The notes below the pieces were generated by a model. That model was not told the origin of the DNA. It did not search any database and worked only from the letters and a program-made list of their open reading frames with translations. A stretch of 64,000 bases of DNA, taken from contig NC_063157.1 in NCBI RefSeq assembly GCF_020921035.1, forward strand, positions 10,762,001 through 10,826,000, read 5' to 3'. This DNA comes from Rhodamnia argentea. Its lineage: Eukaryota > Streptophyta > Magnoliopsida > Myrtales > Myrtaceae. Made by a program: the position numbers and the translations under genes. Shown here in pieces: positions 1 through 20,235 of the stretch. The first letter of the stretch is position 1. Each line of letters starts with the position of its first letter.

Positions 1-380
1 TTAGCTCGTGGAATGTAGGGAAATGCTTCACACTAGGTGATGCAGTGAAGACTCTTTTACCAGAGATTTTTACGGACAAATCAGTCATCAATGAGGATTT
101 GTCTAAAACAGAAGTTGAGGATGACAAGAACGCTCCTTGTGTTTCTCAAGAGGACAACCAAGATGCGAGTGGAAGTGCCGAAGAGAGGACAGAAGAAATT
201 TGTGCAGCTATCAAGCCTCATTTTTCATCAAACACTGCTGAATTAAAGCTTTTAAGAATCCACGGCATTGAGCCAAAATTGGAGATACCTTTCTCTTGGG
301 TTGTGAACAACTTAATGCACCCTGAACATTTTCTTCACATTTGTGTGTTTATTAAACTTGCACAGGCAAATCCTCGATGA
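1..380 (+). CDS. ATG5: Autophagy protein ATG5, 3' end (partial)
   Basis: The frame is open from the window edge (codons start at base 3) to the TGA at 378-380. It encodes the carboxy-terminal part of ATG5, the partner covalently joined to ATG12; the ATG12-ATG5 conjugate, with ATG16, promotes lipidation of ATG8 on the growing autophagosome membrane in the cytoplasm. Recognisable family blocks are GKCFTLGDAVKTLLPEIF near the start and, after an acidic, variable linker, LEIPFSWVVNNLMHPEHFLH near the end, which is the most conserved stretch of the plant ATG5 C-terminal ubiquitin-like domain. The 5' part of the gene lies outside the window. No frame break is visible. The ending KLAQANPR is short, as in other plant ATG5 proteins. 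The next gene (sucrose synthase) converges on it from the other strand. Confidence 0.9.
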   Translation, partial: SSWNVGKCFTLGDAVKTLLPEIFTDKSVINEDLSKTEVEDDKNAPCVSQEDNQDASGSAEERTEEICAAIKPHFSSNTAELKLLRIHGIEPKLEIPFSWVVNNLMHPEHFLHICVFIKLAQANPR

Positions 381-789
381 CTATGGGTCTTATACTTGTT
401 TTTCCCGTTCTAGTCGTTATATCCTTGATCTCTTAGAATGAGAAATTTCTAGAATTCATTTGCTGTAAAGAAACTGTACAGAAAGTCACGATATAAATAC
501 GGGGGTCTCGGTATAGAAGACTCTCTTCACTTACTGTTTTGCTTTCTTTTGTTGTCTCTTCATTGTGGTCTACTCAACTATGACTTTGAATATATGTTAG
601 GGGCAGCTCTCCGATGGCCGGTGCAGTCAATCACTTTCTAGGTTGTGTTTGAGATTCTTTAGACGGAAGCCCTGGGGAGTCAGAATTCCTCTATGAGTAA
701 TCCGAGCATCAGATGAGCAATATCGTGGTGGCCACTTCTTAGAGAACATTTCCAGTGAAAATTCTTTTCAAGCCGGAAACATTCATAGC

Positions 790-792
<3 letters not shown>

Positions 793-842
<50 letters not shown>
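793..842. repeat. (AT)n microsatellite
   Basis: Uninterrupted AT dinucleotide run of about 25 units downstream of ATG5. Confidence 0.95.
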
Positions 843-844
<2 letters not shown>

Positions 845-1386
845 TTTTGATACATGGTCCCTGGAATAAATAGCTTTTTCTGGTCATTCATTTTGTGGCT
901 TCTGAATTTTGATTTCATTCAGTTGGGTCACTATTATTGGGTTTTGGAAACTCAGTTTCAAATTGATGTATTGGGGAAAAGGATGGGCGGCGCTATTTTG
1001 ACTCCTATTTTGACTAAAGCACTCATTGTTTTAGTTAAACGACCAAAACGCCGTCATCTCTCACTCTCTTCAAGTAATTGTTTCTTTTTCTATTAAACTA
1101 TTTGACAAAATTGTCTTTATTTCTATCGTCCATGTTGTCAGTTTCACAATATAAATACTCCAATATATTCAACAAAATCTCATCTTATCTTGCATTAACT
1201 TATCGCTTTCCCTCGAGAAGGTGGTTAATTTTATTATATATCTCATATTTTCAATCATATAACCTACATAGATTATTACAATTTTATATTAATGATGGCT
1301 ATAAGGCTCATCAATACACAATTAATTGTCTATTTTTTATCAAATGATTTGAGAGAAACTTTATTTCAAAGTTGGAAATTAAAATC

Positions 1387-1390
<4 letters not shown>

Positions 1391-1438
<48 letters not shown>
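1391..1438. repeat. (AT)n microsatellite
   Basis: Second uninterrupted AT run of 24 units, about 550 bases after the first. Confidence 0.95.
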
Positions 1439-1440
<2 letters not shown>

Positions 1441-3154
1441 AGCCAATCTTGACCTTGTCGGTGTTTTTTGTAAAAAAAAAATTATGGATTTTTAAAGTTA
1501 AGTATTTTTTATTTTGTGCTTTCTATTGAGCTTTTTGAATTTTAATCCGAATTGCAAGATGGAGATTGAGAATTTTGTTATAGATTCTTCACTATCAAGC
1601 CAACATTAAATTATTTCAAAAGAAAGTTTTAAGCATATTTTAAAGTTTTGATATACTTGCTCTAAGGTTGATTCTATAATCGATAATAGAACAACAAGAA
1701 GTTCTTGTTTTTTCCTTTTTGTGTTGATGTTTTGTTCATATGATCGATACGCTCTAAACATAAACATACTTGACATTTGATTATGTTTCCAACAAATTAG
1801 CCATTTCAATATTTTGTTCAATTTTTCTTTTCCATTGTTGATTACGATTGGCTAGATAATTAGATTGAATTTTAATCTTCAACTTTGAAATATAGTATCA
1901 AAATATTGATAAAAAATAGGTAATTCATTGTGTGCTTATAAGAAGTCTTATATAGGAAATTATAATATCCTATGTTGCTTTTGCGATTAAAAATACGAAA
2001 CCATAAATTAGATTTAACAAATTTCACTAGGCAAAGTGATAGCAGGATGCAAGATAAAATTGTCTCTTGTTGAGTATATGAAGCATTTATATTGGAAAAA
2101 TAACGAGAAAGATGATAGAAATAATATAGGTATTTGGTTAGCTTGATATAAAAACAAACAATAAATTGACGAGAAAAAGGAGGGTTTCGGTCATTTAAAT
2201 AAAAAAGGAGTGTCTTAACTAAAATGAAGGTGGAAATAGTGTCGCCCAAAAGAATATACGAATGACAAAGCTGAGCTCGAAGACTGAACGGGTTCGGGAG
2301 AAATCGGGCTTTTGTTATATATACGCTGCTACAACATGCAACAACGTGGGCCACACAAATTTGTTAGTGACCACCTATGGTCCATGCTGAGTTACCTAAG
2401 ACTACGAAAGCTTTTTACGTAGTTTTAAGAAAATAAGATTATTACAAAACTACGTCGTCTTTGTCCAGGACATTCCAGGAAAAGGTTTTCCTCTGGTCGA
2501 GTCATGTTCTGGGTTGCATAGCATTTGAGCTCTGTTATCGTTTATATAACCGGAAATGCTTGAACATGACCAAAGAAACAGAAAGGTTAATCAAATATTC
2601 AAATGGGAAAGGGTGTCAAAATGGGTAAGTGATTCAGTTTGATTGCAGGGGGGAGCCCAATGTTGCATGAAGTCAACATTAACGCATTAGTAGATTCTCT
2701 CCATGTCGTCTGTACAGTGCGTAGTTCTTATCGTGGTTGCTACTAGAACAAGCCTGCCGAATACTCTGTGGCAGAAGGTTTTGCTAGTGTTCCCAACGTG
2801 AATGTGTTGTATTTAGATACGTGATTCGAGTTCATTGATGCAACTGAATGCGCGTAAAGAAGCAAGAGGTAGTCAAGAATGCACGTCTTATTATTCCATT
2901 CTTTAGTTTCATATTATGACATTTTGGTGCTCAATGCATATAGGATTATACTCTCAGCAGCCAGACAATGACCGGGAAGGCTCTAAATTGCAGAGGATTG
3001 CCTGCAGTTTGAATCGATGTCTTCATCGCTTATTCCATTCCTCTAGGATCCCAGCAGTCTGAAAAGTCAAGCGCAATCAGGTTTCAGAATGCTGTCGCTC
3101 GCATCGCTGAGAGTGAATTTTATTTAAAATGGTAGCCGTAGGGCCACTGGATCC

Positions 3155-6100
3155 TTACTTTTGCAACCGCGACTGCGACCTCTTTGTGCTGCAAAACAAC
3201 AAAGCAAAATGCCTCAGCTTTCCACAGGAAATCCCGATAAGGCATGTGGTAGAAGGAATCTGATCCTATCATTCAATCGAGACTTGAAATGCGTCAAGAG
3301 CTGCAGCAATCATCTCAGGAAATTACCTCATTGTGGGCTGAGGTTTTGGCAGTGGCTTTGGTGCGGGTTGTTCGGGTTCATCGATTTTAATGGGAACAGT
3401 CTTCATCTGTTACATCAAAAATGAATTCCAGACCTTTATTTTTCTGAAGGGCATGAAGTTCTGTGGCATGCTCGTAGAGTAAAAGGGGGAAGTGAGCAGA
3501 GGAGTTACCGTGTTCCTGAGTTGAAGGCTATAGAACATCTGGATATATCTCTGCTTTGCTTGCTTCTGTTCTTTGTTCAGTTGCTTCCAAAAGGTATAGA
3601 TGCTTCCCATGTTCAACATCTTGTCTGCATATATTTTCCAGGTGTAGCTGCAAAGCAAATGAGTTTTGGTCAAGTCAATTCCATGGAAGTGTGCGGGATT
3701 TTCGCGAAGATTACACTTACCACTCATTAATGCGTTTCAAGCCCTCTGCAGATATCTTGTTCCAATGCTCACTGTCCACCTTACACTTCTCGAAGAAATC
3801 GGCAATTTTGTTGCTGGACTCTTCCCCATGATTGGGGTCAATGTGGAATCCAGACACTCCATCGACAATGATCTCAGCAGGGCCGCCTTGATTGGTGGCG
3901 AACGTGGGCAACCCACAGTTCATTGCCTCGATTACGGTCAGACCGAATGCTTCATAGAGAGCAGGCTGCACGAAAGCTCCCCTTGTATCTGCAATACATC
4001 GGTAGAGTTCTCCATTTCGGTACCGATCTGTCTGCGCTGCTATCCATCGGATCTGACCCTTGAGTTGGTACTTCTCTATCAACCCGTGCATCTTTCTTAT
4101 TTCAGCCATTTCTTCCCTATCTTTGGACTTGGAAGGATCAAAGAAGCCCCCAACAATGACAAGGTTAACCAAATTCCTGAGCCTTGCATTCTTCCCATAC
4201 CACTCTACTAGACCAGTTATGTTTTTCACTGTGTCGAGTCTTGCCATAGAGAAGATGATAGGTTTCTTCTTGTCCGCGAGATACCCACTATTGCGACAAC
4301 GGTCAAATACGATGGTGATTAAAGTGTAATAAGATAAATTGACACACACGTTTTGGAGCTCCGGACACGGCCTGGAATAGCAATACTTACATGTGCTCGT
4401 CATTGTCCACACGGCTGTACAGTAGCTCCTCGATTGCAGGATGGAATGATGTGACTCTTCTCTGTTTCTCCGAGTAAGGAAAATAAACAGATTGATCAGC
4501 CCCCGGAGCAACAATATTGAATTTAGGATCAAAGACATTGATGCCCGAAACAACTCTGCAGAGCCCTGGGAGTGTGAAGGCTGCGTGACTCTCGTATTGC
4601 CCAAGTCTATCTTTGCTGCAAATAGTAGCACCTAATCTTGAGAACTCTTTGATGATGCATATTAGGAATATACTTCATTTTTGTTGTTCATTTGACTAAC
4701 TTTGAAAGTGGTTTTTTTGCAGTAACGACATGGAAGATTATATGTTTAAGCTGAAAAACCGAAGGTTACGTTATTAGGATGTTCCTCTGACCTTCCAGCA
4801 ATCTCCTGGAATGTACTTGTTATGACGAAATCCGTTGCGTTCATCGCTATCGTATCGGCAATGAATTGGCATGAGAAGTGATACTTTGGGTCTAGCTCCT
4901 TCCACTTGACATCGGACTCTTCATACTTAGTCTTCTCCAGTGCATGCGCGATTGTTCCCTGGGTTTTCAGCACTCTAGAGTAGTCAATAATCGGAATTAG
5001 CACTTAGCTCGTGAACAGAAGAAGCAGTAAGGCACCTGAGTTATCCCGAGTTTACTAGCCATAAGCGACGCTACCAAATTCCCATCAGTGTAGTTTCCGA
5101 TTATAAGATCCGGTTTCCCTTCCATGTGATCTAGTATCTTAACAGTCGCATCCTGGTGAGCGACGACAGAAGGAAGGAAACCGTTATGCAAGAAAGAAGT
5201 TGATCAGGGATAATGGTTGATTTTGAATTTTGAATCCCTGCCTGGGTAAATCTCTCAAGGTACGGATATATGTCGAAACGAGAAACCCACTGACGAAGGA
5301 CCCCCTTCTCAGTCCTAAAGGGCACCCGAAGAATGTTGCAGTGCTTGGTCCCAATGATCGGTTCCACTTCCTGGTTGCATTTTGTACCACGAGCATCGGG
5401 GATAAGTCGTGTGACCTGTTACGTTGAAGAGACAATATGAAAAGCGACTCCTTAAACTGGCATATATTCACAGGAAAGTGGTTGCTCGCCATGTTCCGAA
5501 ACTGACCACGAGTATCTGCGGCTTCGCATTAATCCCTTGCTCCTTAATCCTGAGGAGCAACTCCTCTTCCAGGGCCCTCACTTGATCTAAAATGTAAACT
5601 ACCTGTTGTTGTCGCTAAATGTTTAGCAGGCTATGTAACAGAGAACATGGGTGGATAGGAGGATTGACGAGGATATTTACCTGCCCACCGGTATCTGGCA
5701 AGCCGAGCACATCCGCCTGGCCAAAATAACCATGGGGGGAAAATATCACAACATTGAATATCACTGGAAGCCTACTAAAGAATTTCTCCATGTTCGTTGG
5801 ATCTGGTGCTTGCAGTACTTCCGAGAGCGATCTGATCGTGTCCTTGGCTCTCTCCGCCGTAGCGCCCCAACCTTTCTCGAGGCCCCACTCCTTGAACCTA
5901 TCATTAATGATTGTTATAAACAGTGAAAATGTGCGTGGCATCGAATGTTGGTGAGCGACCTACTGGATTTATCCAAGGAAAAGTGAGAAACTACCTCATC
6001 TCAAAGTTTTGGAATGGGGTGTCTTTTGGAAGTGATGCAAGGGATGCCTCAGCTACAATCAGGGCCATCTGAAGCTTGGGTGCAGTGTCAAGTGTTTCAT

Positions 6101-7016
6101 TTATCATGAGATTCTGAAAATGAAGAACATTAAACGGGTTAGGAATTACATCTGCACTTATAGTTTTCGCGTAGTGTGAATCAGTTTTGCATACTTCTCC
6201 TTGATAATTGAGGGATGCTAGGAAATCCACAAGGGGTTGTGCACTGTCCGGCGTTCCGCTCAGCTTTGAGGAGAGGTACTTTGAGATGAAATCGACTCCT
6301 TTTCCGATAGATGAAGATAAGGTCAGGTGCGGAATGGTAATTTCGTAGGCTCCTAAGTCCACTTCCAGCGCATTCTCATCTTTTGCCCTGCCAAGAGAGG
6401 AAAAAATTGCTCTTGAGCCAGTAAAACACAAGAGTAGGTCATGTACTATGGTTCCAAACAGCATAAGATGAGTGGACGATGTCTAAAACCAAGGAGACTG
6501 CAAACCATTCTTCATCGTATATCATTTCCTTGAACTTCAAATAATCAGCAGTGCTGATGCCCTCCACCGACAGAGAGTCGGCACGGACTTTGACAAATTC
6601 CCAGCTTCCAGGACTCCGTCTGACAGCGAAAACAACGTGCGGGGGCACAACAAGGGCTTCCTGGGAAAAATGTTCGTGTTGCGATGCCTCAGTTGGGATG
6701 AAAGAGTCAATAATCATATCGACGGAGACCATTAGGAAAGAGAGAGAGAGAGAGAGAGCGTCTTAGGTGGGGATGAACGAACCTGAGTGTAAGAGAGGAT
6801 GTACCCGAGATCGCTGCCCAGGATGCGGTCCCTCTCCGTCTTGGCATCTACGACGCTTTCCATTTCATCCATCAAGTGGTGGAGTTTCATTGTCCTCCTC
6901 CCCTTTTCCATGTACTTCGCGAAGCACCTCTTCATGTGGTATCGGCTCTGGCTGAGCGCCTCGGGCATGCTGTTGGCGACCGGCTCCGTCTTCTTCAAGG
7001 AGGGGCTCGATTCCAT
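3155..7016 (-). CDS. Sucrose synthase, SUS5/6-type, 14 exons
   Basis: Reversibly converts sucrose and UDP to UDP-glucose and fructose, feeding callose or cellulose synthesis and sink metabolism. Exons on the minus strand: 7016-6783, 6660-6506, 6387-6195, 6113-5995, 5897-5681, 5602-5507, 5415-5242, 5152-5036, 4958-4792, 4615-4391, 4287-3721, 3647-3509, 3406-3327, 3188-3155. They sum to 2517 nt, 838 aa, with every phase consistent. The start at 7016 gives [20 protein letters not shown], a family-like N-terminus. The sucrose-binding [14 protein letters not shown] lies near residue 300. R582 and K587 (RLDTVKN) and the retaining glycosyltransferase E-X7-E pair at 678/686 (EAFGLTVIE) are intact. 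A proline-rich then basic tail (about residues 802-838, ending RSQSRLQK) exceeds the roughly 805-aa common isoforms and places it in the SUS5/6 (also called SUS6/7) clade. The intron after exon 7 appears to start with GC. No defect seen. Confidence 0.93.
6739..6758. repeat. (GA)n microsatellite in sucrose synthase intron 1
   Basis: Run of about ten AG units inside intron 1 (6661-6782). Confidence 0.9.
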
Positions 7017-7915
7017 TGGTTTATGAAAGACTCACAATTCTCACAAGTCTATGTTATTCATCCTCACAACGTTCCTTGCCATTTTATAGAACCGCCGAGG
7101 CATGGGCGTGGCTCATCGGTTAACCAGTCCTAATACATTTTAGAATTCTCCCACATCAAAAGAACATCTTCCTTAAAGTGAGAGAAGAGAAAAAGAAAAG
7201 AATCTCACAAATCTCATCTGAGAAAGATACGTTGTCCAAAAAAGGCGGGATGGCTTATTTGGGCTGCCCATCTCCCACATGTGATCATGAGCATCATTCT
7301 TTTCTTATCGTGACAGTAAGAAAGAACAAGAGGGTAGAGAGACATCAACGGCAGGCCCTTTTCTTGGCTTGTCTCATTGAAGCCGCCCATCAATCATGGT
7401 GGGAATCTTTGAGATTTCAGATTGACGGTGCTTGATCTTGTTTCTGCACCTTTTGCCATCAGGAGCAAGAAGGTGATGGAAAAAAGGAGAGTTCAAGACC
7501 AGACAGCTACGTGGGAATATCAAACTGCTGGTGTTGATAGAATGAATTTTGCAGTCCTAATCTAGAGGATCATTCTCATGCCCATTCTGATCTTTTTGGG
7601 GCACTTTATTCGGGTCTTGTCCATACCCGGAGCAGATGCCCTGAATCCTTCCTAGGTGTTTCTTCTAAACCAATCCCAGGGGACTCTCCCCAGCCCCGCA
7701 GCGCCTCGGCTCCATTCGCCCACATCGCGGCTTCGGGATCGTTCCAGACATTCCGATAAAAGGAGCATGCTTTCGAAATCGAATATAAAATACGTCGAAA
7801 TTGAAAAAGAAAAATGAAATTTTGGAAAAATTCACTGCCTAGAGAGTCTTCCCTTTTTCTAAATTGGGGTGGGCTACTTTGATTAAAATCTTAGAAAGGT
7901 TTTAAAGAGTCTTCG
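7017..7915. other. Upstream region of sucrose synthase
   Basis: No coding region is supported. It should carry the sucrose synthase 5' UTR and promoter (minus strand). I did not identify a specific transcription start or cis element. Confidence 0.4.
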
Positions 7916-7987
7916 CTAATCATTTCTACATCGATTGGGAACCCAAAATGAAGTCGGCGTTCTCGACATTCTCAAGACGTCGATTAA

Positions 7988-8182
7988 TTGTTTCTTGCAA
8001 TGTGGCTCAGTCACCTCGTCAGCTTCCATATCGCGGCGCTCGGATGTGTGCTCTTTGTTGCACCTCCATCCAAGCTGAACTGTAAGGAAGCCTCGATTCC
8101 CGTGGTGCTTATTATTATGGTGGCAGTGTTCCACGTCATCATCTTCACGATGTTGGGAAAGCGCCTCTCAACAAGTATTTGA
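7988..8182 (+). pseudogene. Relic of an unidentified membrane-protein gene (copy 1)
   Basis: A 64-residue frame with two hydrophobic segments around IAALGCVLFVAPPSKLNC and VVLIIMVAVFHVIIF. The first block is clearly related to IIALGCVLGIAPPSKLQC in the relic at 28580, so both descend from one gene family that I do not recognise. A further hydrophobic-then-basic stretch at about 8353-8465 (AMPFYLSFSKIVVQLKRSRA) in another frame may be another piece. No complete gene structure can be drawn. It lies between sucrose synthase and a Copia remnant. Confidence 0.4.
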
Positions 8183-8465
8183 AACTGTAGTACATAATTT
8201 TGCATTTGCCCCACATTCAGTAATAGTTGAATCTCTCTCTCTCACTTGTTTGAGAGAAATCTAAACCCGAAATTTTCTTTCTTCCTTCGTATGATATGTA
8301 TTTCTAAAAAAAACCAGAAAAACCCTTACGTCCTTGGCGTTGCTCATGTGCTGTTGAGACCGTGCTGGTTGCCATGCCTTTCTACCTCAGCTTCTCGAAG
8401 ATCGTGGTTCAGCTCAAGCGTTCGAGGGCCAAAATTACAGCCACGAAGAGGAGGCCGGATCAGTG

Positions 8466-8565
8466 ACCACTCTCCCTCGATCGGGGTCGGGGTCTGGGTT
8501 GGCGGCTCTCCCTCGGTCAGGGTTAGGGCCTCTCACTCGGCTAGGGAACACTCTCCCTCAGTTGG
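8466..8565. repeat. Degenerate GC-rich short tandem repeat
   Basis: Four or five imperfect copies of a motif like CTCTCCCTCGGTCGGG, more GC-rich than the surroundings. Confidence 0.5.
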
Positions 8566-8654
8566 CTTTTTGACTTCTCTGGTGACAATGCTCCTACTTT
8601 TTCTCTTTCAGCTGCCGATTTATTTTCTTCTGCAATTGATTGGTTCTCATCAAA

Positions 8655-9281
8655 TTATTTCATTTTTTTCATGAACCTCTTCTTCCACTTGCTTTGAATT
8701 TGGTAATTCAGCAGCTTGTGATGACCACCACGATGATAGTTTGTCGAATACCACATTTCTAAAAGTGGAACAACTCCCGGTTGTAGGATCACAACACTTC
8801 CATCATCATTGTAGCCCACAAATATGCAGTGAATTACCTTCTTATCAAATTTGCTGCATAGATGATATGGCACAAATGCATAGAAAACGCATCTGAATAC
8901 TCTAAAATGACACCCCTCTATGATTGGTATACCAATGGGTTTCACATTGCGGTACAACGTCTTGTGGGCCAATCACCACATAGTTTCCCGAGTCTGTGAA
9001 TTCTGACATGGATAATAGATTTTTCTTCATCCTGGGTACATGATATGCATTTTTCAGCTCAATTTGATGTGAGTTGGATTGGGGTGTTATCACCATTTGG
9101 CCGACATGATTAATCAGCAATCTTGAGTTATCAGCGGTGACAACTACTCGACCATTGATGTACTCAGACATATTTTTAAGTTTGCCTTGATCTCCGACCA
9201 TATGATTTGAACACCCTAAATAAATTATCAAATCAACATCATGATTGATCGATTTATGACTTATCGTGATGAGAGCCGTCG
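8655..9281 (-). pseudogene. Copia protease region and integrase/RT connector
   Basis: The minus-strand frame at 9260-8970 carries YLGCSNHMVGDQ, the aspartic-protease block in which the usual DSG triad reads YLG. This is followed by NAYHVPRMKKNLLSM, a block normally found downstream of the protease. A second frame (8972-8690) has CHFRVFRCVFYAFVP and KKVIHCIFVGYNDDG, found between integrase and reverse transcriptase. Everything between the two blocks is absent. The loss of the catalytic aspartate and the deletion show the element is dead. Confidence 0.8.
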
Positions 9282-9492
9282 TGTCACAACTCCTCCCTAG
9301 TCCCATATTGCCTAGGAGGAGGTCTTGGGAAGGCCTTATAAGCCGTGGGGTGCCCTTAGACTTGCAAGAGGCCTTTTCCGAGTATTGTATGGGCGACGTT
9401 TGGAGGAACAAAACCGTGAGGACTGTATGTCCAAAGTGGACAATATCTTACAAAGTGGCGCAGCGGAAGCGCGTGGTTCCCGTGCCGTTACA
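9282..9492 (+). mobile_element. Short TRIM-like (Cassandra-like) solo LTR nested in Copia
   Basis: A 211-base segment that begins TGTCACAAC and ends CCGTTACA interrupts the Copia coding region. It contains CCTTATAAG and the GGACAATATC block that I associate with short non-autonomous plant LTR elements of the Cassandra/TRIM kind. The flanks CGTCG and CATCG could be a diverged 5-base target duplication. No 5S-like internal promoter was verified, so the family name is tentative. Confidence 0.5.
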
Positions 9493-9634
9493 CATCGCAT
9501 CTTTTTAATTTGGTAGCAGAAATGGCCACGAGCTCTTCTTGTTCCTCGACGGCAATAGAGGCTTGGAAATCCCACTCCTCTTTGCTATCATTCTTCTTAG
9601 ATGCGGCAACATTGCCTTAAACTCTTTTAACTTA

Positions 9635-9676
9635 ACAATCTGTGGCAACATGACCGACTTTGCCGCAGATGAAACA
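9635..9676 (-). other. CCHC zinc knuckle of the Copia gag
   Basis: The minus strand reads CFICGKVGHVATDC, a textbook CX2CX4HX4C nucleic-acid-binding knuckle. It is in frame with an upstream TGA at 9677-9679, so it is cut off from gag. Confidence 0.9.
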
Positions 9677-10484
9677 TCATTCCTTTCGTCTTCTGTTGCT
9701 TTTATCTTCATTGCTATCTTTGTCGCAATTTTGCCAAGCTCCCCCTAGCCGATGGCTTGCCCCTTCCGGTCGCTTTTGCCGTTTTCTATAACTTTTCTTT
9801 TGTTTACCATCTCTATTACCTGCATTAGTCCTCCTCTTACTCTTGAACCCTCTTTTATTACTGAAGAGGACACTTTCGTCTTCCTTGACCAAGACCTTAG
9901 ACATTTGTTTATCTAAAGTCTCTTGGTTGGCCAATAAATTCTCTAACTCAGTCAGAGTTGGCACATTTGCCCATCCACGGGTTGCCATAACAATACCATT
10001 ATACTGCGATCTTAACCCATGAATGATAATTCCTCTCATTCTTGGCTCAAAGATGGCATTCTTAGGATCCAACTTTGAAATTTCATTACAAATAGATTTA
10101 ACTTTGGAGAAATATTGACTGAACGTCATATTTTGTGGCGACATCAAAAGTAGCTCATTCTCCAACCTTTGCCACTTGGGCATCTTTTGACCTCGCAAAA
10201 AGTGCTACCAAGTTATCCCATGCCTCCTTTGTAGTTTGCGCGCTCTTGATGTGTTGCATTAGGTCATCTTCAACAGTCCTTGCAAGAGCATAAGGAGATT
10301 TAGCCGCTTTAATGTTCCATTTCCTTAACTCGTCATCATTCATGGGTGGTGTGATGTTGTCGCCGCTAATGATATCCCACAAGTCTTGTCCCCGCAAGTA
10401 AAACTGCATGTGGGTACTCCAATTATTATAATTGAAGTTGTTGAGTTTCTTGACACTGTTCTTCGAACTTGAAATATATGCCAT
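9677..10484 (-). pseudogene. Copia gag (UBN2-type) in two frames
   Basis: The first frame (10484-10155) begins MAYISSSKNSVKKLNNFNY and carries the gag signature around YLRGQDLWDIISG and KEAWDNLVALF. The second frame (10198 down) continues with KMPKWQRLENELLLM, FSQYFSKVKSICNEISKLD and a long basic tail. These are the usual nucleocapsid/gag blocks of plant Copia elements. The two overlap by about 40 bases around 10155-10198, which indicates a frameshift in what was one ORF. It ends at a TGA (9677-9679) immediately before the zinc knuckle. Confidence 0.85.
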
Positions 10485-10645
10485 CTGACTTAGATATAAT
10501 GCATGGTACTACACCAATTAAGCTTGGTTCCAAACCAATCGATCATAGTCCCCGACTGTGTATTGGCAGAATTTTGGCATTCTCCGATCCCGACCGCTTG
10601 CACACGAACAATGGTCCCAAATAACCTAGGCTCTGATACTCCATA

Positions 10646-10995
10646 TTGAACTTAGGAAGCATCGGCTAGCCTTCAGAAGTGCCGATTAGGCTTCAAAAGT
10701 GTCGGCTAGGCCTTAGCAGCATCGGTGAGGTTCGGGTGTCGGTAACTCTCAACACAAGGAGAACACTCAAGGAATGTGATGAATATGCTATTTTATTTCT
10801 TATTGCACTACACAACTACTATAAGGTTTGCCTTTATATAAGCATAATACATTACTCTTGACTTGCCTCATAAACGACTCATAAATCTACCTAGCATTCC
10901 AAGGAAATAGAATCCTGGGAAATGACAAAATACGAAACACGAATAGTCACATTAACTAAACATCGAAAAACACGAATAGATACGGCTAACCAAGA
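10646..10995 (-). repeat. Probable 5' LTR of the Copia remnant
   Basis: Lies directly upstream (minus strand) of the primer-binding-like site. It contains a TATA-like TATATAAAGG on the minus strand near 10835-10845, as expected for an LTR promoter. With no second LTR in the window the outer boundary is approximate. Confidence 0.5.
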
Positions 10996-11104
10996 AGGAT
11001 CTAGAGAGAGATAAGTGGTGATTTCCGAAGAGAAAAACTCTCCTTTCATTCAATGAATATTTTTTTTTGTACATTTACAATACTCAATCCTATCATATAT
11101 ATAC

Positions 11105-12082
11105 ATGCCTGCTTTAATCATATCAACTATCACACCCTTGCAAGGATTAGATATAATTCTTCTGCATCTAATTAAATGCTTCTGATCTTCCGGTATAAAT
11201 GCATGATTATGTTCGGAAACATACTCTATCACCTCACAGACACCATTATCAACCTTAAATTTGATGTGAGCAAGACATCCAGATCTGACTTCACATCTCT
11301 CATACTTTTTTTTTGATCGGATGAGCAGACAGAATGCCCCTCACAATTACACATAAAAGTCCGTCGAGTTATTTCTCCTTTTCTATTTTTAACCGTATTA
11401 CCCTTCCTCACTCCAAATCCTTTGTCAACTGCATAGGCCACATACTTATGATATGCTTCAAGTTCATTTGAAAAAACCATCCCTAGTGCAAACTCAAAAC
11501 CTTTTTTCAAATCACGCATTACATGTGCAAGATGGGAAGTTTCATGCTACAACCAAATGGACAAAAAGTAATTAACGTAGTGCTTTTACAAGATAAATAA
11601 TATTTCATCCATTATTTAAGAAAGCAAATTATGTTTCACATAGTATAAGTGAAGAATTACCTCTGATTCAGCCATCCAATAACTTTACACGTGCAAGTTA
11701 ATTGATGGGATATATGACTTTGAAAGAGATAATTCTGTAGGTCCCTCCCGATCAAATACAAAACAAACTCTTTTGGAACACAATCATGAGAAATCAAAAG
11801 TAGCATGATACTGGGAAGTGTCTCTCTAGCATGAGAAATCAAACGCAACACACTTGTACACCACACATTCAAGAAAATATGCAGTACCTAAAATACATAT
11901 GGTGATATGCAGTACCGAAAACACATACGGTGAACAAATGCAGCACGAAAAGTAAATAAACCACAAGCAAAAAAAAAAAATCTCACTCATGTAAAAAAAA
12001 TACAATCGGATGCCAATTTGAGAAACCAACAGATAAGTTTTCCTGTATTCATTTTAATGGCATGAGAAAAGATCTCCAAATA
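11105..12082 (-). repeat. Left arm of a 0.98 kb inverted duplication (MULE transposase 5' part)
   Basis: Nearly identical to the reverse complement of 12785-13765. It carries the same start (minus ATG at 11675, MAESE), the same intron, and the FAR1-domain exon beginning at 11546 with MRDLKKGFEFALGMV. Differences are a few substitutions and the length of a poly-A run (9 versus 12), which puts each copy out of frame. It lies outside the MULE's left terminus at 12083, so it is a separate duplicated piece. Confidence 0.9.
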
Positions 12083-12784
12083 GAGAAAATATTGCATGAG
12101 TGAGATACTCTACGCTAGATTAATAAAAAATCATTAACTAATCGACGTGTGGCACGTCGGGTCCAACCGATCAGAATTTTGAAAAACGCAGGAGGTGATC
12201 TCCTGTTATCTCCCTTTGTTATCTCTCTCCCATACCCACCTAAGTTCATGATTCTGTTTCTCTCTCCAAGTTCACGACTTGGCCTCCCTCTCTCTCTCTC
12301 CAAGTTGGCTTCCTAGACCCGAGCTTCGGTCGACGACCACGCCGGCCTCTCGATCAAAAGCACGAGCGCTTCCTCCGCCATCTTGGAGCCCCCCTTTGCC
12401 ACCACCTCATCTCTCTCCAAGTCCTATCTCCCTTCTTTGATTGTGCTCGCGATTTTGCCTGTGATTTCGAGGCGAAAGCTTCGCTAACCCTGTCACCTCT
12501 CGTTAGGGTTTTCCTTCCTCCGTGTCGAACGAGTTCGGGTTACGGGAAGTCGCCGCCTCGGGTTAGGTTTTTCGTCCTTTGGCCCGACGACCTTCAAGTT
12601 AAGATTTTTTCCCCTCTTTCACCGAGTTGAGACTGTTTGGAAGAAATTTCAATGGGCGGCATTCGGTTGATAAGTTTCATCTTATAGAACTGCGTCCGTT
12701 TAATTGGCATATTTGCGAAAGAAAAAATTGGCGTCTAATTAGGTATTTTTTTAGGGGATTGAAATTTCATATACTCTAAAGGCT
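12083..12784 (+). repeat. Left terminal inverted repeat of the MULE
   Basis: Matches the reverse complement of the right end over about 700 bases, including the CCTCTCTCTC-rich tract and AACGCAGGAGGTGATCTCC. Weaker similarity continues inwards to about 13050. It is also the spacer between the two arms of the inverted duplication. Confidence 0.85.
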
Positions 12785-13765
12785 TATTTGGAGATCTTTT
12801 CTCATGCCATTAAAATGAATACAGGAAAACTTATCTGTTGGTTTCTCAAATTGGCATCCGATTGTATTTTTTTTACAAGAGTGAGATTTTTTTTTTGTTG
12901 CTTGTGGTTTATTTACTTTTCGTGCTGCATTTGTTCACCATATGTGTTTTCGGTACTGCATATCACCGTATGTATTTTAGGTACTGCATATTTTCTTGAA
13001 TGTGTGGTGTACAAGTGTGTTGCGTTTGATTTCTCATGCTAGAGAGACACTTCCCAGTATCATGCTACTTTTGATTTCTCATGATTGTGTTCCAAAAGAG
13101 TTTGTTTTGTATTTGATCGGGAGGGACCTACAGAATTATCTCTTTCAAAGTCATATATCCCATCAATTAACTTGCACGTGTAAAGTTATTGGATGGCTGA
13201 ATCGAAGGTAATTCTTCACTTATACTATGTGAAACATAATTTGCTTTCTTAAATAATGGATGAAATATTATTTATCTTGTAAAAGCACTACGTTAATTAC
13301 TTTTTGTCCATTTGGTTGTAGCATGAAACTTCTCATCTTGCACATGTAATGCGTGATTTGAAAAAAGGTTTTGAGTTTGCACTAGGGATGGTTATTTCAA
13401 ATGAACTTGAAGCATATCATAAGTATGTGGCCTATGCAGTTGACAAAGGATTTGGAGTGAGGAAGGGTAATACGGTTAAAAATAGAAAAGGAGAAATAAC
13501 TGGACGGACTTTTATGTGTAATTGTGAGGGGCATTCTATCTGCTCATCCGATAAAAAAAAAAAAGTATGAGAGATGTGAAGTCAGATCTGGATGTCTTGC
13601 TCACATCAAATTTAAGGTTGATAATGGTGTTTGTGAGGTGATAGAGTATGTTTCCGAACATAATCATGCATTTATACCGGAAGATCAGAAGCATTTAATT
13701 AGATGCAGAAGAATTATATCTAATCCTTGCAAGGGTGTGATAGTTGATATGATTAAAGCAGGCAT
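12785..13765 (+). repeat. Right arm of the inverted duplication
   Basis: Counterpart of 11105-12082 in opposite orientation. Similarity stops at GGCAT, after which the transposase gene continues here and unrelated AT-rich sequence follows in the left arm. Confidence 0.9.
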
Positions 13766-16230
13766 TGAAGGAACTAATACATATAAGTACCTATCAAACA
13801 ACACATGAGGAAGCAAAAACATGGGATTCATTCTGCGTGATTCTCAAAACTATATGCAGAGAAATAAAGCCAATGATATAAGTGGGGGAGATTGTCAAAG
13901 TCTTTTGAATCATTTTCATTGCATACAAATGCAAAACCCAATGTTTTTCTATGCTATACAGGTAGATCAAGAAGGCAGATTGACGAACTTATTTTAGAGA
14001 GATAGCTTGTCCAAATTTGATTATGACTATTTTGGTGATGTGTTGGTGTTTGATACTACATATCATACCAACAAATATAACTTAATATGTGCACCTTTTG
14101 TTGGGGTTAATCACCACTGGAATAATACTCTATTCGGCTGTGCATTTTTGTTGGATGAGATTGCTGAATCATTTATTTGATTATTTGAAGTGTTTTTGAA
14201 ATCTATCGAAAATAAGGCTCCGAAAACAGTACTCACAGATCAAGACCATGCCATGGAAAAAGCCATTAGAACGGTGTTCCCGAATACACAACATCGTCTG
14301 TGCACTTGGCACTTTGGGAAAAATGCCAATCAAAATATTTCACAACTTTACCATCAGCCTGATTTTAAGTATAAGTATTTCTTATCGCTTATGTATAGAT
14401 GTAGATCAGAGAACGAATTTGAATTTACTTGGAGGGAAATGGAAAAGGAGTGGGATACCGGGAATAACAGTTGGCTTCGGAGATTATATGAGCTTAGACA
14501 TAAGTGGAGTTCAGCTTTTGGTCGTGATATTTTTACATGTGGTATTCGCTCAAGTCAAAGGAGTGAGAGCACTAATGATGTCTTCCAATGTATGTCAACA
14601 AAGACATTGACTCTTGTAGAATTTGTCCACCACTATGAAGAATAGCTAAAACATATGAGAGAAATTGAAAGTCAAGATGATTATAGTTCTCGTGGGAAGC
14701 CCAAATTGCGGGTTAACCATGGGATCTTGACACAAGTTGCTTCATTGTATACTCGTACCATTTTTGAAAGGTTCAATAAAGAATTTTTGCAAAGTCTGTC
14801 GGTACAGATTTTAAGCACTACATTCGATGGATTGGTTTATGTATATACTCTCAAGTGTGTGGAGAGTCAACGTGAAAATGTTGTCACATTTAATGCTGCA
14901 GAATTTTCAATTTCTTGTGAATGCAGATTATTTGAATCAAAAGAGTGGTTGTGTCGCCATGCATTGCATGTATTGATTGCGAACACATCCGGCATGGGTA
15001 TTCTATCTTCCTATAATTTGAAAAGATGGACGAAGGGTGCTAAACAAGGGAGTGTGGATGATGAATCCAATCAAATGTCACCGAGTCTATCTAAATTCAA
15101 TTGTTTTTCCATGTTAATGCATGAAGCTTTTGAAGTGATGAGTTTGGGCTCCGAAGATGTAAATACCATGGGAATAACGAGGAAGAACTTGCAAAAAACG
15201 AAGGATGAAATTTTATCTTACAAGTCAAGTGTGGTTTTGAATGATGATGATATCGATGATTGTGATAATACGCCCTCTTTGTATGAGATTTCAGTATTGG
15301 ATCCCCTTCGAAGGAAAGGAAAGGGAACAAGTTATGGAAAGCTTAAAAGCTCAAGTGAGGAAAAAAAAAACATCTAAGAAAGGAGCACCTCCAATGCCAA
15401 TAGAAAGTCGAGGTGAGTGACATATTTTTCTAGTTAATATAATTAGTTAAATATTTTGCTAATATTACATGATGCCATATATCATATTTATTATTTTGTA
15501 TTGTAGAGTTGGTTGTCCATGCAACACATGATGAAACTCATTTTCAAGATTATTCGAATAATTCAGATCAGATACGAAGTGCCTTTTATCCTAGCAACAT
15601 CGGTGGTCCTACAGTAAATCTAAATTTTCATAATCAGGTGTCTCTTTTGGCCCTCCATTTTTTATTAACATTTTACTAATTTGGTCAAATTTTATGTAGG
15701 TGCAACCACCATACGTTATGCCGCCGGGGATTACGAATGGGTTTTGCCCATTCCCAAGCACGGTATTATTTGTTTGGTGTATTAACTTGTGTCTTATCTA
15801 CACTGCTTCTATCGACATAAGAAGCGCTTAATTTAGTTACATTCTGCTAATGGGGTCCTTCTTTTGTGTAGATGCAATCACCCTACATCATGCCGCCGGG
15901 GATTATGAATGGATTTTCTCCATTCACTAGTCAGGTGTTTATTATGAAAATCATTTTAGGTCCGGGTGTTATTCATCTTCTTATTGCTATTGTAATATAT
16001 ATATTGTCAATGGTTTCTCTTGGATAGATGTTGGAGTATCATAACAGATCTCATGGAACCATCTTGAGTCGGGTATGACTTGCCTTTTGTTGGTGAGGGA
16101 TTATTTGAGACATATATATCTAGGCATGTTGATTAGTGAAAGGTAAATATTTTTTTTTCTTTGTACAGGGGTGGCCATCAAACTCTTTTCAGCATCCTGG
16201 GATGAATGAACCAAGTGATTCCGAAGGTAC
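13193..16230 (+). pseudogene. FAR1-related MULE transposase, inactivated
   Basis: Would bind the element ends and catalyse cut-and-paste transposition. Exon 1 is 13193-13207 (MAESK); exon 2 starts at 13321 after an intron. Seen in order: a FAR1 zinc-binding domain (about 13385-13700), the MULE catalytic core with VFDTTYHTNKY and VLTDQDHAM, and a SWIM zinc finger CECRLFESKEWLCRHAL near 14930. Small 3' exons follow, including 15700-15762 and 15872-15934, which are a duplicated pair. Breaks: in-frame stops at 13806 (TGA), 13995 (TAG), 14178 (TGA) and 14643 (TAG), and frameshifts in poly-A runs near 13553-13564 and 15359-15370. The rest of the frame is well kept, so inactivation looks fairly recent. 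The upstream domain is also copied in the left arm at 11105-12082. Confidence 0.88.
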
Positions 16231-16674
16231 ATTGATTTCACCCTATTGAACATCGTCTTTAACTCTTTTGCCTTTTGTCATGTGAAGTTCAAAGTCACCA
16301 AGCTAACTATGCATCGACACTCCTACATTAGCATGCTTTTTCCTTCTCTTTATTTTTACAATGCATTAGAAGTGATCTTTTAACTCAACAATCAAACTTC
16401 TGACTTCGAGTGAAGACACGCCTGTGCATCTGGAAAATTCAAAAACAAAAGAATATGTTAGAAGTGGCTGCAGCGAACTTTAGTTGGTAGTCATAAAAGA
16501 ATGTGGTCATTTGAGCTATTTCCCGCTAGGTAATCAGGTGGTGGCAGTTGTGTTTATTGACATGAACGGTTCCTGTATATGATTCTTTAACGGTTGCTTC
16601 CAACTTCTCCAATCCCATGGGTTTACACTACATACATTGCATTGATCACGGGTTTTCAATCAAATCAGCTCCAG

Positions 16675-16895
16675 GGAGATGGAGAAGATAAACTTCTTCA
16701 ACGGTATACTGAAAAGTGACGTCTTCGTGGCCGTGCTCACTTGCACTGTTGTCGTCCAAATCATAATCAGTGAAAAACTAGAAACATTTGCAAACACATC
16801 CTCTAAGCTTGCAACAGTGGTTTGTCAGCATTTTACTTGGATTTCTGGGCATGCCAATTGCAATCGCTTTGATGATCCATGTGGGATCCGGATGA
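16675..16895 (+). pseudogene. Captured terminal exon of an autoinhibited Ca2+-ATPase (ACA-type)
   Basis: Preceded by an acceptor-like CTCCAG, the sequence reads EMEKINFFNGIL, VFVAVLTCTVVVQIII and FANTS, then, after a one-base frameshift, PLSLQQWFVSILLGFLGMPI and AIALMIHVGSG followed by TGA. These are the last two membrane segments (TM9 and TM10) of plant type IIB Ca2+-pumps, which export calcium using ATP. Only this exon, and probably part of the preceding intron and following 3' UTR, is present, on the same strand as the transposase and between the MULE ends. With no ATPase core it cannot be a pump; it is a transduplicated fragment. Confidence 0.85.
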
Positions 16896-17639
16896 CAAGG
16901 CCTGCAGTTTTAGCCTAAAACTAGGATTTTAGTTTTCATCACTTTATTTTTGCTTTTATTCGCCCTTTCTTGGTCATCGATTTGTAACTTTGAGCAAGTG
17001 GCCAGTTTTTGGTACTATAAAGCTTCTGAAGCTTCCAAAATTTAGGGCTCAAGTGGCTGCACAACTATGACTTTTGATATTCAATTTCCGACTTTCATGA
17101 ATGGCATTATTTTTAACGAGACCGTTGGTCTTATGCAATTGCCAACAGTTGACTATTATATGAACTTGAAGGTCCAGTCATAACTTGCACAATGTGACAA
17201 GCCAAGTGTACTAATGAGGAACGTTGAATCCAAACGTGACTTGTTTTCTAATGACTATGTTCCTCCCATTTTTGCCATGAGATACGTTTGGGGCTCACAT
17301 GGTCTGCTTGCTTGACATTATTCAATTTTAGTATGCATGTCTTTACTTTTTTATCTGTAAAAGTGAAGAAGAAATTTTGGGTAGGACCGTGGAATAATCC
17401 TACCAGAAATCTCAACCAAGATTCCTCAGCTAGATAAATCATTGCTAAAAAACGCCCATTGAATCCTGCTCTTGGTCAAGAGAAAGGGACTACCAAATTG
17501 CCAAAACAAGTGATAATTTTTCACTCAACCAAGCTGATAAAACCGCCAAGCCCGAGCAGCGATTGAATAAAATAAAAAAAAAGCCAGCAGTAAGTTCCAA
17601 AATATTATTCATATTGAAGGGGGTTCTAAAATCTCTGCC

Positions 17640-18515
17640 GCTACCGGAGAAATCAGATGCATACAGCACACATTCAAAGAAAACATGAAGCACCAAAACA
17701 GCATATGGTGACCAAAAACAAATAAACCACCAGCAAGCAAAAATCTCAATCCCCTAAAAAAATACCTAATCAGACGCCAATTTTTTTTTTTTTTTTTGCA
17801 AATATGCCAATTAAACGGACGTAGTTCTATAAGCTGAAATTTATCAACTAAATGCCGCCCATTGAAAATACCTAATCAGACGCCAATTTTTTTTTGCAAA
17901 TATGCCAATTAAACGGACGCAGTTCTATAAGATGAAATTTATCAACTAAACGCGCCCATTGAAATTTCTTCCAAACAATCTCAACTCGGTGAAAGAGGGA
18001 AAAAAAACCCTAACTTGAAGGTTGTCGGGCCAGAGGACGAAAAACCTAATACGAGGCGGCGACTTCCCCTAACCCGAACTCATCCAACGTAGAGGAAGGA
18101 AAACCCTAACAGGAGGCGACGGGGTAAGCGAAGCTTTCGCTTTGAAATCGCGGGCACAATCAAAGAAGGGAGATAGGACTTGGAGAGGGATGAGGTGGTG
18201 GCGGAGGGGGGCCCTGGGACAGCGGAGGAAGCCCTCGTGCTTTTGATCGAGGGGCCGGCGTGGTCGTCAAGTGAAGCTCGGGTCCGGGGAGCCAACTTGG
18301 AGAGAGAGGGGGAGGCCAAGTCGTGAACTCGGAGAGAGAAACAGAATCGTGAACTTGGGTGGGTGTGGGAGAGAGATAACGGAGGGGGATAACGGGAGAT
18401 CACCTCCTGCGTTATTCAAAATTCTGACGGCTGGGACCCGACGTACCACGTGTCGATCGGAGAATTGTTTTCTATTAATCCAGCGTGGAGTATCTCACTC
18501 ACGCAATATTTTCTC
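17640..18515 (-). repeat. Right terminal inverted repeat of the MULE
   Basis: Reverse-complement match to 12083 onwards: shared blocks include CACGACTTGGCCTCC and AACGCAGGAGGTGATCTCC. The inner part, about 17640-17760, still resembles the sequence just upstream of the transposase start. Confidence 0.85.
17763..17960. repeat. Tandem duplication inside the right TIR
   Basis: Two copies, about 95-110 bases each, of a segment running from CCTAATCAGACGCCAATTTT to CAACTAAA(T/C)GC. The left TIR has only one, so this duplication arose after the two ends separated. Confidence 0.8.
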
Positions 18516-18848
18516 AAGTTGTAATACTGCCTCGTTCTGAAATGTACAAAATATACAGAGCATCATTAGCCAAAACCGAAAGAAAAGATTTATCTATAGA
18601 GAGCAAGTGTTTATCTGCATTTACTGGTTAGTAAAATTACTATGAATGACCTTAGTTCAAAAGTTATAAATGTTTAAAAGCATGAAACTAGACGACGTCT
18701 TCTAAGCAAGAGTTTATGACGGGAGATACGAGTAGAAATACCCAATTAGTATTGATGGGAACTTAGATGCATGATAAATCTTTGTATTGAAGTCTTGATC
18801 AGCACATCTGTTATCCCCTTGGAAGGACAAGAGGCTGGCAAAAGGCAG

Positions 18849-19535
18849 GGAAAATTGTTCAAAGAGCTCTAAACTTTATTTCACGTTTGTCGGTTCAGTC
18901 TTAAACCTTTTAGTTTTACAAATTAAGTCATAAACATTTATATAGAGTCCATTGGTAGGAAATTGCTGACGTAGATGCCGGCCATCATAAAGGCACGACT
19001 AGCACTAATTTGGATATTTTTTAAATAATATTTTAATATTTCTAGATAGTTTTCTTAATGAATTTTTTTTTCCTTTTAATATTTCTTTTTCCCTCCGTTG
19101 AGCCTCGTCAATGGCCGGCGGAGGTTGTCGGCCCGCTGGGGTCGCCCTTACCTAGGCGGGAGTGGGCAACACTCACCGGGCCAGCAAGGGCGACCCTCGC
19201 CCAAGGTCGGTGAAGGCGGCCCTCATTTGAGCCCGGCAACCTGCGCCAGCCATTGATGAGTCCTGGCAGAGGAAGGAAAAAAATAAAGATGGAAAACAAG
19301 GAAAAAAAAAGAAGGAAATTTTTTTAAAAAAAGTTGTTAAAAAATTTCAAAAGAAATATTATAATGTTAATAAAAATTATTTACGTTAGCGCTAGTCGTA
19401 TCACGTAGAACAGCCGGCGTCCACGTCAATAATTTCTGGCTAAAATTAGAATGGACTTAATCAACAAAAAGTGTAAAGATTTAGAATTGAATTAGCAAAA
19501 ATGTAATAAATTTATAATTTTTTACATAATTTTCT
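18849..19535. mobile_element. AT-rich small element with inverted ends (family A, copy 1)
   Basis: Starts with AAAATTGTTCAAAGAG and a 'CGGTTCAGTC...AAACC...TTTAGTTTTAC' block, and ends with the reverse-complement-like block TTAGCAAAAATGTAATAAA...ACATAATTTTCTC. A GC-rich core lies at 19085-19265. The same end motifs recur at 20255, 23105 and 24133. No coding capacity is seen. Confidence 0.6.
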
Positions 19536-19568
19536 CTGGCTAAGGCATCATCGGTCGACGGGCAAAGA

Positions 19569-19572
<4 letters not shown>

Positions 19573-19632
<60 letters not shown>
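19573..19632. repeat. (AT)n microsatellite
   Basis: About 30 uninterrupted AT units. Confidence 0.95.
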
Positions 19633-19634
<2 letters not shown>

Positions 19635-19690
19635 ACTACCAAGGCAGGAAAGAATAAATCAAAGAGCAAATAGTACAAAGATAGTCCAGT

Positions 19691-20235
19691 TAAACATGAA
19701 TGAAACCTTATCCTGTAATTAGGAAAAGCGTTGATAAAAGCCCCAACAAACCGACCGCCAATACACCTTAAAGTCAACAATCCCTGAACAAAAAAGCACT
19801 CCGGCAAAATGCATAGGACAAACAATATCCCGCATAAAACAAGACTGTGATATGCCAATTTTTTTAAGGAAAAAAAAAAAGTGAAGCACTGTGACAGACA
19901 ATTCTGAATCTCCAACTTTTCAAGAGCAATGCAGTCAGTTCATTCAAATGGTTTATTACTAAATAACACTCTGAACACGAAATTAGGTGACACGGTTCAT
20001 TAAAATGGTTTATTATACATGCCTGTGATTGCTCGGGATCATAACTCAATGACATCGTATATCTCCACTTTCCCTTTTATATTCACTGAATTCTTCTCGA
20101 CACGTGAATGTTTGGAGCTTTCACTAGTCAGCATCGTAAATGCACTATTCCCATTTTCTAATCGGAGATTTTGCGAAGTAATGGATTTCGTATTAAATAG
20201 TTGTGTTTGAAAAATTGAATTTAATGTCTTCCAAA
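19691..20235. repeat. Dispersed repeat, segment B (copy 1)
   Basis: Matches 25883-26440 over about 540 bases, with shared blocks such as CCTGTAATTA(G/C)GAAAAGCG and TTTATTAC(T/C)AAATAACACTC. No coding function seen. Here segment B precedes segment A (20651-20776), the reverse of the order at 25.8 kb. Confidence 0.85.

Follow-up and report, generated by a model that had tools for sequence, protein, structure and literature searches.

The MULE locus and its inverted duplication

The DNA analysed here, referred to as the window, is a stretch of 64,000 nucleotides from Rhodamnia argentea (C8:10762001-10826000 of the assembly searched, which comprises 346.7 Mb in 74 contigs). It carries a decayed FAR1-type MULE and, directly outside the left TIR of this element, a second and inverted copy of the 5′ end of the same element. 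The following features were assigned at the locus:

11027..11106, minus strand: truncated LTR-like repeat in the left flank, overlapping the left arm by 2 nt (AT) at the join
11105..12082, minus strand: left arm, reverse complement of 12785-13765 with 98.6% identity; inverted MULE 5′ leader, start codon, intron 1 and FAR1 domain (Pfam FAR1 in two frames), adjoining the outer TIR end
12083-18515: decayed FAR1-type MULE; TIRs 87% identical, both ending in GAGAAAATATTGC
12083..12767, plus strand: TIR-L, with the terminus GAGAAAATATTGC at 12083 and 87% identity to TIR-R; forms the spacer together with 12768-12784
12768..12848, plus strand: leader segment S, which holds the inner arm break 12784/12785
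12785..13765, plus strand: right arm, i.e. the MULE's own 5′ leader, ATG 13193, intron 1 and FAR1 domain
13193..15377, plus strand: decayed transposase gene (Pfam FAR1, MULE, SWIM)
17741..18515, minus strand: TIR-R; about 98 bp within it are duplicated in tandem
18516..18524, no strand: right-flank 9-mer, with no target-site duplicate left of TIR-L or of the left arm

Self-BLAST of the window aligned 12785-13765 with 12082-11105 on the minus strand over 981 columns with 11 mismatches and 3 gap columns (98.57% identity). The same arms were recovered by a repeat finder as three ungapped pieces and were also matched base by base; 705 of the 955 24-mers of the left arm recur in the right arm, and the two arms occupy separate positions in the assembly (C8:10773105-10774082 and C8:10774785-10775765). 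They enclose a spacer of 702 nt (12083-12784), which consists of TIR-L (12083-12767) and 17 further nucleotides. These data confirm that the inverted duplication is real and that it is, as the initial annotation had described it, a near-perfect duplication of a MULE transposase 5′ end around its TIR. The FAR1 domain, which the same annotation had placed inside the arms, was indeed detected there by Pfam, with both domain halves present in each arm and split over two different frames in both. The start codon of the right arm is ATG 13193, that of the left arm has its A at 11675 on the minus strand. Perfectly paired stretches between the arms reach 235, 134, 127 and 107 bp, compared to a longest exact inverted match of 13-17 bp by chance (20 first-order Markov shuffles of 8001-20000). 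A transcript crossing both arms could, as had been proposed, fold into a stem of about 980 bp.

Over 978 columns, 7 transitions and 4 transversions separate the arms (K2P 0.0113), and ten differing columns lie in the outer arm part common to relatives. With the closest relatives (L009-L012) as reference, the right arm deviates at 13205, 13394, 13502, 13538 and in the A run 13553-13555, the left arm at 13204 and 13333, while 13631 is mixed. These private changes indicate that both arms were altered since the duplication. As TIR-L and TIR-R have diverged to a K2P of 0.125, the duplication, with 0.011 between its arms, must be much younger than the TIR divergence. Substitution rates of 0.7-1.3e-8 per site and year would give the palindrome an age of roughly 0.4-0.8 million years, provided that these rates apply and gene conversion played no part.

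The transposase gene is a pseudogene, with a frameshift in an A run near 13545-13570 and main-frame stops at 13806, 13995, 14178 and 14643 according to three-frame translation; splice-like sites read from the letters around 13208-13320 delimit intron 1. Long TIRs of about 0.7 kb together with the MULE domain (PF10551, 5.4e-12) and the SWIM domain (2.6e-5) place the element in the Mutator superfamily despite the absent TSD. The right-flank 9-mer AAGTTGTAA and the 9-mer CTCCAAATA left of TIR-L differ at 8 of 9 bases, and the left side is rearranged. Clear 9-bp TSDs are also absent in those relatives in which both ends were compared, namely L010, the segmental duplicates L011/L012, and L013, where the 9-mers are at most partly alike; these elements may be either old or the products of unusual integration. 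One candidate structure, a nested insertion of the MULE with a 9-bp TSD, was rejected: among 9-mers starting at 8001-12084, compared with the right-flank 9-mer at seven offsets, the best match at the correct offset had 2 mismatches and lay at unrelated places.

At the outer TIR end (12082/12083), the left arm is fused without overlap to the outermost base of TIR-L. Homology in the relatives L009, L010, L011/L012, L013 and L033 ends at the equivalent of 12083 or a few bases off, with other DNA outside. The inner break (12784/12785), by contrast with this exact join, falls at an unremarkable place within segment S, which lies between TIR and start codon in L033 (1863-1937) and L014 (3714-3773). 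The order in L033 (C3:2566501-2570500) is TIR, about 236 bp, S, about 270 bp and a segment matching 12848-13058. From this leader order it follows that the window element has two deletions and that 12785 is no natural element end; one of these leader deletions is present in both window arms and therefore predates the palindrome. The possibility that the arms belong to two chimeric elements carrying a TIR-like segment twice in the leader was ruled out by the leader order of L033 and L013/L014.

On its outer side, the left arm is joined to the truncated repeat. The genome query with this repeat matched at least 34 other places over 11027-11103 (best 40 of 41 candidates scored); as this query ended at 11104, these matches alone do not show the cut at the arm. 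We regard the repeat as LTR-like, because many copies occur in same-strand pairs roughly 4-5 kb apart. Six copies inspected in longer context (L034, L044-L048) all diverge where the window turns into the arm. Element sequence in window 1-11104 is limited to one 18-mer match (E 0.54), and no TIR was found there; a left MULE copy continuing past the repeat fragment was thereby ruled out.

Two further features of the window were recorded. Remains of a copia-type retrotransposon lie at 8905-10204 on the minus strand (Pol_BBD 1.3e-15; a weak gag match, E 0.073). Positions 33891-64000 consist of units of about 10.8 kb repeated in tandem and 96-99% identical to each other, and contain a reading frame that we take to be COX11-like.

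Inverted 5′ ends elsewhere in the family

The initial annotation had suggested a search of the genome for relatives of this MULE. The left arm matched at least 45 places, corresponding to at least 38 loci (best 40 of 61 candidates scored; loci counted by hand), and beyond the window arms the best listed matches were 89-91% identical, over the outer 703 nt only. The search yielded two relatives, L012 and L022, with uninterrupted transposase frames and two loci, L014 and L019, with Mu killer topology. L012 encodes 712 aa without interruption (FAR1 8.8e-15, MULE 6.5e-29, SWIM 5e-5), L022 an uninterrupted FAR1-MULE-SWIM frame of 703 aa; they have 58 and 31, respectively, of 958 21-mers in common with the left arm.

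Opposite-strand pairs of matches lie side by side in 3 of the 38 listed loci: the window, L014 at C10:11.92 Mb and L019 at C2:26.75 Mb. One more locus with an inverted 5′ end, at C11:19.10 Mb, surfaced through the search with the L019 arm, so that such loci number at least 4 of 38, of which 22 were looked at in their sequence context. Self-alignment of 20 loci in 10-kb contexts found long inverted arms bearing transposase sequence in two of them, L014 and L019. The three loci outside the window are:

C10:11914001-11924000, about 1964-8585 (L014): palindromic MULE with Mu killer topology
C2:26750001-26760000, 1958-6382 (L019): bounded palindromic element; flanking 9-mers ATCAGTTAT and GTCAGTTAT, 8 of 9 alike
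C11:19095801-19104900 (L049-L051; the C11 copy): arms at 19097047-19098360 and 19102263-19103584

As a control, the 3′ part of the gene (14646-15374) was searched in the same way; it matched at least 44 places at no fewer than 40 loci (best 40 of 42 candidates scored), none of them with a nearby opposite-strand partner. The resulting ratio of inverted pairs, 4 of 38 loci for the 5′ end versus 0 of 40 for the 3′ part, is suggestive only, and the fourth 5′ locus came from an extra look beyond that given to the control.

The arms of L014 have diverged to a K2P of 0.217 over 1481 columns. Relatives that reach the inversion align to both arms and break at 5763-5784, mostly at 5773/5774, and related TIR sequence is present at both outer ends. 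That L014 might be a multi-copy element was rejected, its full arm being matched by its own two arms only. For L019, the K2P between the arms is 0.186 over 1238 columns. Searching with its arm revealed two further palindromic places, C3:24.47 Mb (L041) and C3:16.34-16.36 Mb (L042/L043), which are segmental duplicates of each other, flanks included. No similarity was seen between the DNA flanking L019 and that flanking L041, i.e. these are unrelated sites. The arm tree groups the left arm of L019 with the right arms of the C3 copies and the right arm of L019 with their left arms (95/96), which implies that the palindrome is older than the split. Judged from this grouping, the L019-type palindrome was probably mobile and moved as a unit.

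The inverted copies at C11 are 94.3% identical over 1322 columns and separated by 3.9 kb that contain a full-length transposase region. Composed of TIR and leader, these arms extend into the gene as far as the position matching window 13163-13425. In a sibling at C1:36.26 Mb (94%), the inversion at the other end comprises no more than the first 292 of 560 bases; the remaining 268 are thus part of a TIR extension in the C11 copy, whose right TIR is prolonged by inverted leader and gene start. The terminus motif was not found at the right end of the C11 copy. If a sense transcript of this copy read through, its tail would be antisense to its own 5′ end.

In the family tree, the two arms of every palindrome group together, each palindrome at a place of its own, with a support of 100/100 for the window and L019 and of 89/81 for L014, a fork below the starred support level of the tree tool; the C11 copy was not part of this tree. 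Because the arms are sisters within each palindrome, less firmly so in L014, the inversions appear to have arisen repeatedly, although of the three changes that the palindrome label needs on the tree the well-supported branches force only two. The inversion points, which all differ (TIR tip; about 14660; about 13403-13540; the C11 type), also favour separate events.

Other rearrangements were seen among the listed relatives. L013 contains a 305-bp tandem duplication of TIR end and flank (6034-6338 / 6337-6641), and short self-palindromic inserts without transposase sequence lie within the transposase copies of L013 (3798-4259) and L024 (6648-6976). The match lists for C3:12018158-12018369, C3:12058436-12058648, C8:3464979-3465063 and C8:3615465-3615549 suggest two inverted TIR ends each, in a MITE-like arrangement.

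Origin and possible activity of the window palindrome

We consider the palindrome of the window to be the scar of an aberrant transposition in a decayed FAR1-type MULE, a reading to which we assign a probability of about 0.6. The transposase would have cut the element at its TIR-L end. The cut end would then have joined the 5′ leader of a sister copy (end-to-internal-site transposition) or would have been repaired by copying about 1 kb of the element in reverse; both routes are compatible with the data at hand. Finally, the chromatid would have been closed by end joining to a resected left flank. Such a scar is pointed to by the exact join at the TIR tip, the arbitrary break in the leader and the truncated left repeat with its 2-nt overlap. 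Among the at least 45 places listed, none other matches the full arm length, which looks like a single local event, and the two arms are sisters in the tree. The absent TSD is weak evidence for a scar, since comparable relatives also lack a clear one. Passages of PMC4270019 describe for maize Ac/Ds that transposon ends join replicating DNA, that copying is aborted and that closure occurs by microhomology joining; a MULE precedent for exactly such a product was not found in the literature searched. As a counterpoint, the inverted 5′ ends at three more loci of the family could mean that more than accident is involved.

The same breakpoints could conceivably have been left by a MULE that jumped into the leader of an oppositely oriented, near-identical copy, the rest of which was later lost on the right side. 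A TIR terminus at an arbitrary site in S is what one side of a normal insertion is expected to look like, and the leader is a plausible target, given the preference of Mutator elements for inserting into gene 5′ ends. We nevertheless judge such a nested insertion unlikely: the right flank from 18516 onwards corresponds neither to the remainder of S nor to the 9-mer next to TIR-L, TIR-R is no hybrid with TIR-L, their differences being spread over the whole length, and the listed matches contain no second near-identical element, the best others reaching 91%. A further possibility is an artefact of library or assembly, some libraries being known to yield inverted chimeras. Fold-back chimeras, however, have identical arms and little or no spacer, whereas here the spacer measures 702 nt and the 11 substitutions show a natural 7:4 mix of transitions and transversions, so that one arm is not the verbatim duplicate of a single read. 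With arm-private changes relative to the related elements, and breakpoints at a TIR end and within a repeat, we regard an artefactual origin as very improbable.

Alternatively, the locus might work as a Mu killer-like silencer, in which a crossing transcript would form a hairpin of about 980 bp, or a shorter one of the leader, and the resulting siRNAs would act in cis and, on relatives, in trans. The stem is near-perfect over 5′ leader, start codon and DNA-binding domain, L012 and L022 with their uninterrupted frames offer possible targets, and inverted 5′ ends recur within the family. By analogy with the antisense promoter described for intron 1 of Mu killer and MuDR, transcription from a similar promoter in the right arm would cross TIR-L and enter the left arm. 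The central position of the TIR argues against this function: with the TIR between the arms, an inward promoter in TIR-L would give only sense RNA of the right arm, and a hairpin needs a transcript that crosses both. The potential precursors, again by analogy, would be an antisense transcript from TIR-R over about 5 kb or a transcript from the intron-1 promoter. From the left, no promoter reading into the palindrome was seen by eye in the letters, and the TATA-like stretch read from the letters of 11027-11106 lies on the opposite strand, directed away from the arm. Furthermore, the closest listed relatives match only the outer part of the arm at 89-91%, and in L014 and L019 the K2P between the arms has risen to 0.19-0.22. 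As this divergence is about that of ordinary family members, there is no sign that stems are maintained or complementarity is kept. A working silencer therefore appears doubtful to us. The window product may be seen, from its sequence, as a potential source of long hairpin RNA, at a locus that most likely is silent or weakly transcribed and not a dedicated silencer.

Extending this idea to the family, one may speculate that FAR1-type MULEs in this genome repeatedly invert their own 5′ ends (window, L014, L019, C11), one of these inversions being mobile, and that the products act as self-generated hairpin silencers, which we hold to be quite improbable. If this were true, Mu killer would be one case of recurrent self-triggered silencing by plant transposons, and the window copy its youngest, inside-out form. 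One MULE family in one genome presents four loci with inverted 5′ ends, of differing ages and layouts, together with relatives that have uninterrupted transposase frames, and this recurrence lets one ask whether such accidents regularly seed transposon silencing. It is the recurrence that is worth following; the palindrome of the window itself is a real, unusual rearrangement, most likely of sober origin.

Comparison with Mu killer and other systems

Foldback transposons include FARE and SoFT, and Tm1 is reportedly a Mutator/Foldback element. They resemble the L019 type, in which a near-whole palindromic MULE is found at two unrelated sites. The palindrome of the window, unlike them, is not a bounded mobile one and has no outer termini, and the arms of L019 differ from them in bearing transposase coding sequence. 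Passages of Ferguson and Jiang (PMC3310237) describe MULEs with additional tandem or solo TIRs in TSD-bounded elements, with an internal TIR lacking a TSD and an origin that is unclear, and state that acquired sequence can become part of extended MULE TIRs. The window locus shares with these elements a MULE TIR located internally in a rearranged structure, without TSD at the internal TIR, as far as those passages describe them, but differs in that its TIR is flanked by inverted transposase copies and that its left outer end is missing. The C11 copy, whose TIR is extended by leader and coding sequence, resembles the extended TIRs described there. The Composite Insertions of Ac/Ds, as presented in passages of PMC4270019, likewise combine a transposon end with duplicated nearby sequence and closure by microhomology, but they arise from Ac/Ds and involve two nearby elements, whereas the window locus contains a single MULE and an inverted 1-kb copy. 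Palindromes of this kind are not mentioned in the passages of PMC4858842 that we consulted. In the literature searched, which covered few subscription journals, no report from outside maize was seen of recurrent palindromes resembling Mu killer.

Accounts of Mu killer usually treat it as a one-off accident in a single maize line, and the transposase MURA carries the MuDR-type DNA-binding domain. This domain was not listed by Pfam for the window (E up to 0.1) or for the relatives with intact frames (E up to 0.01). The initial annotation had likened the palindrome to Mu killer, stating that the latter silences MuDR through a hairpin RNA. The passages of PMC2563033 agree with this statement, describing Mu killer as a perfect 2.4-kb hairpin processed to 26-nt siRNAs and as a single derivative. 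Those of PMC3440606 do not: they link silencing to short antisense RNAs of 0.65 and 0.74 kb, which are unable to form large hairpins, and place a promoter for antisense transcription in the first intron of mudrA. The hairpin model is thus disputed for Mu killer itself. Regarding structure, the Mu killer of the PMC3440606 passages carries TIRA at either outer end, has an inversion of about 1.3 kb of mudrA in its interior and lies between amy4 and acm1. The parallel holds insofar as the window also contains a partial inverted duplication of the transposase 5′ part with TIR sequence and the potential for a long hairpin. It fails in topology and descent, because the palindrome of the window is inside out, with a central TIR and no outer TIRs found in window 1-11104, its transposase is of FAR1 type and not derived from MuDR, its arms measure 0.98 kb as compared to about 1.3 kb of mudrA, and its parent element is a pseudogene. 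L014 and L019, which like Mu killer are inverted within the transposase and carry TIR sequence on either outer side, would, judged by this layout, deserve the Mu killer label better than the palindrome of the window.
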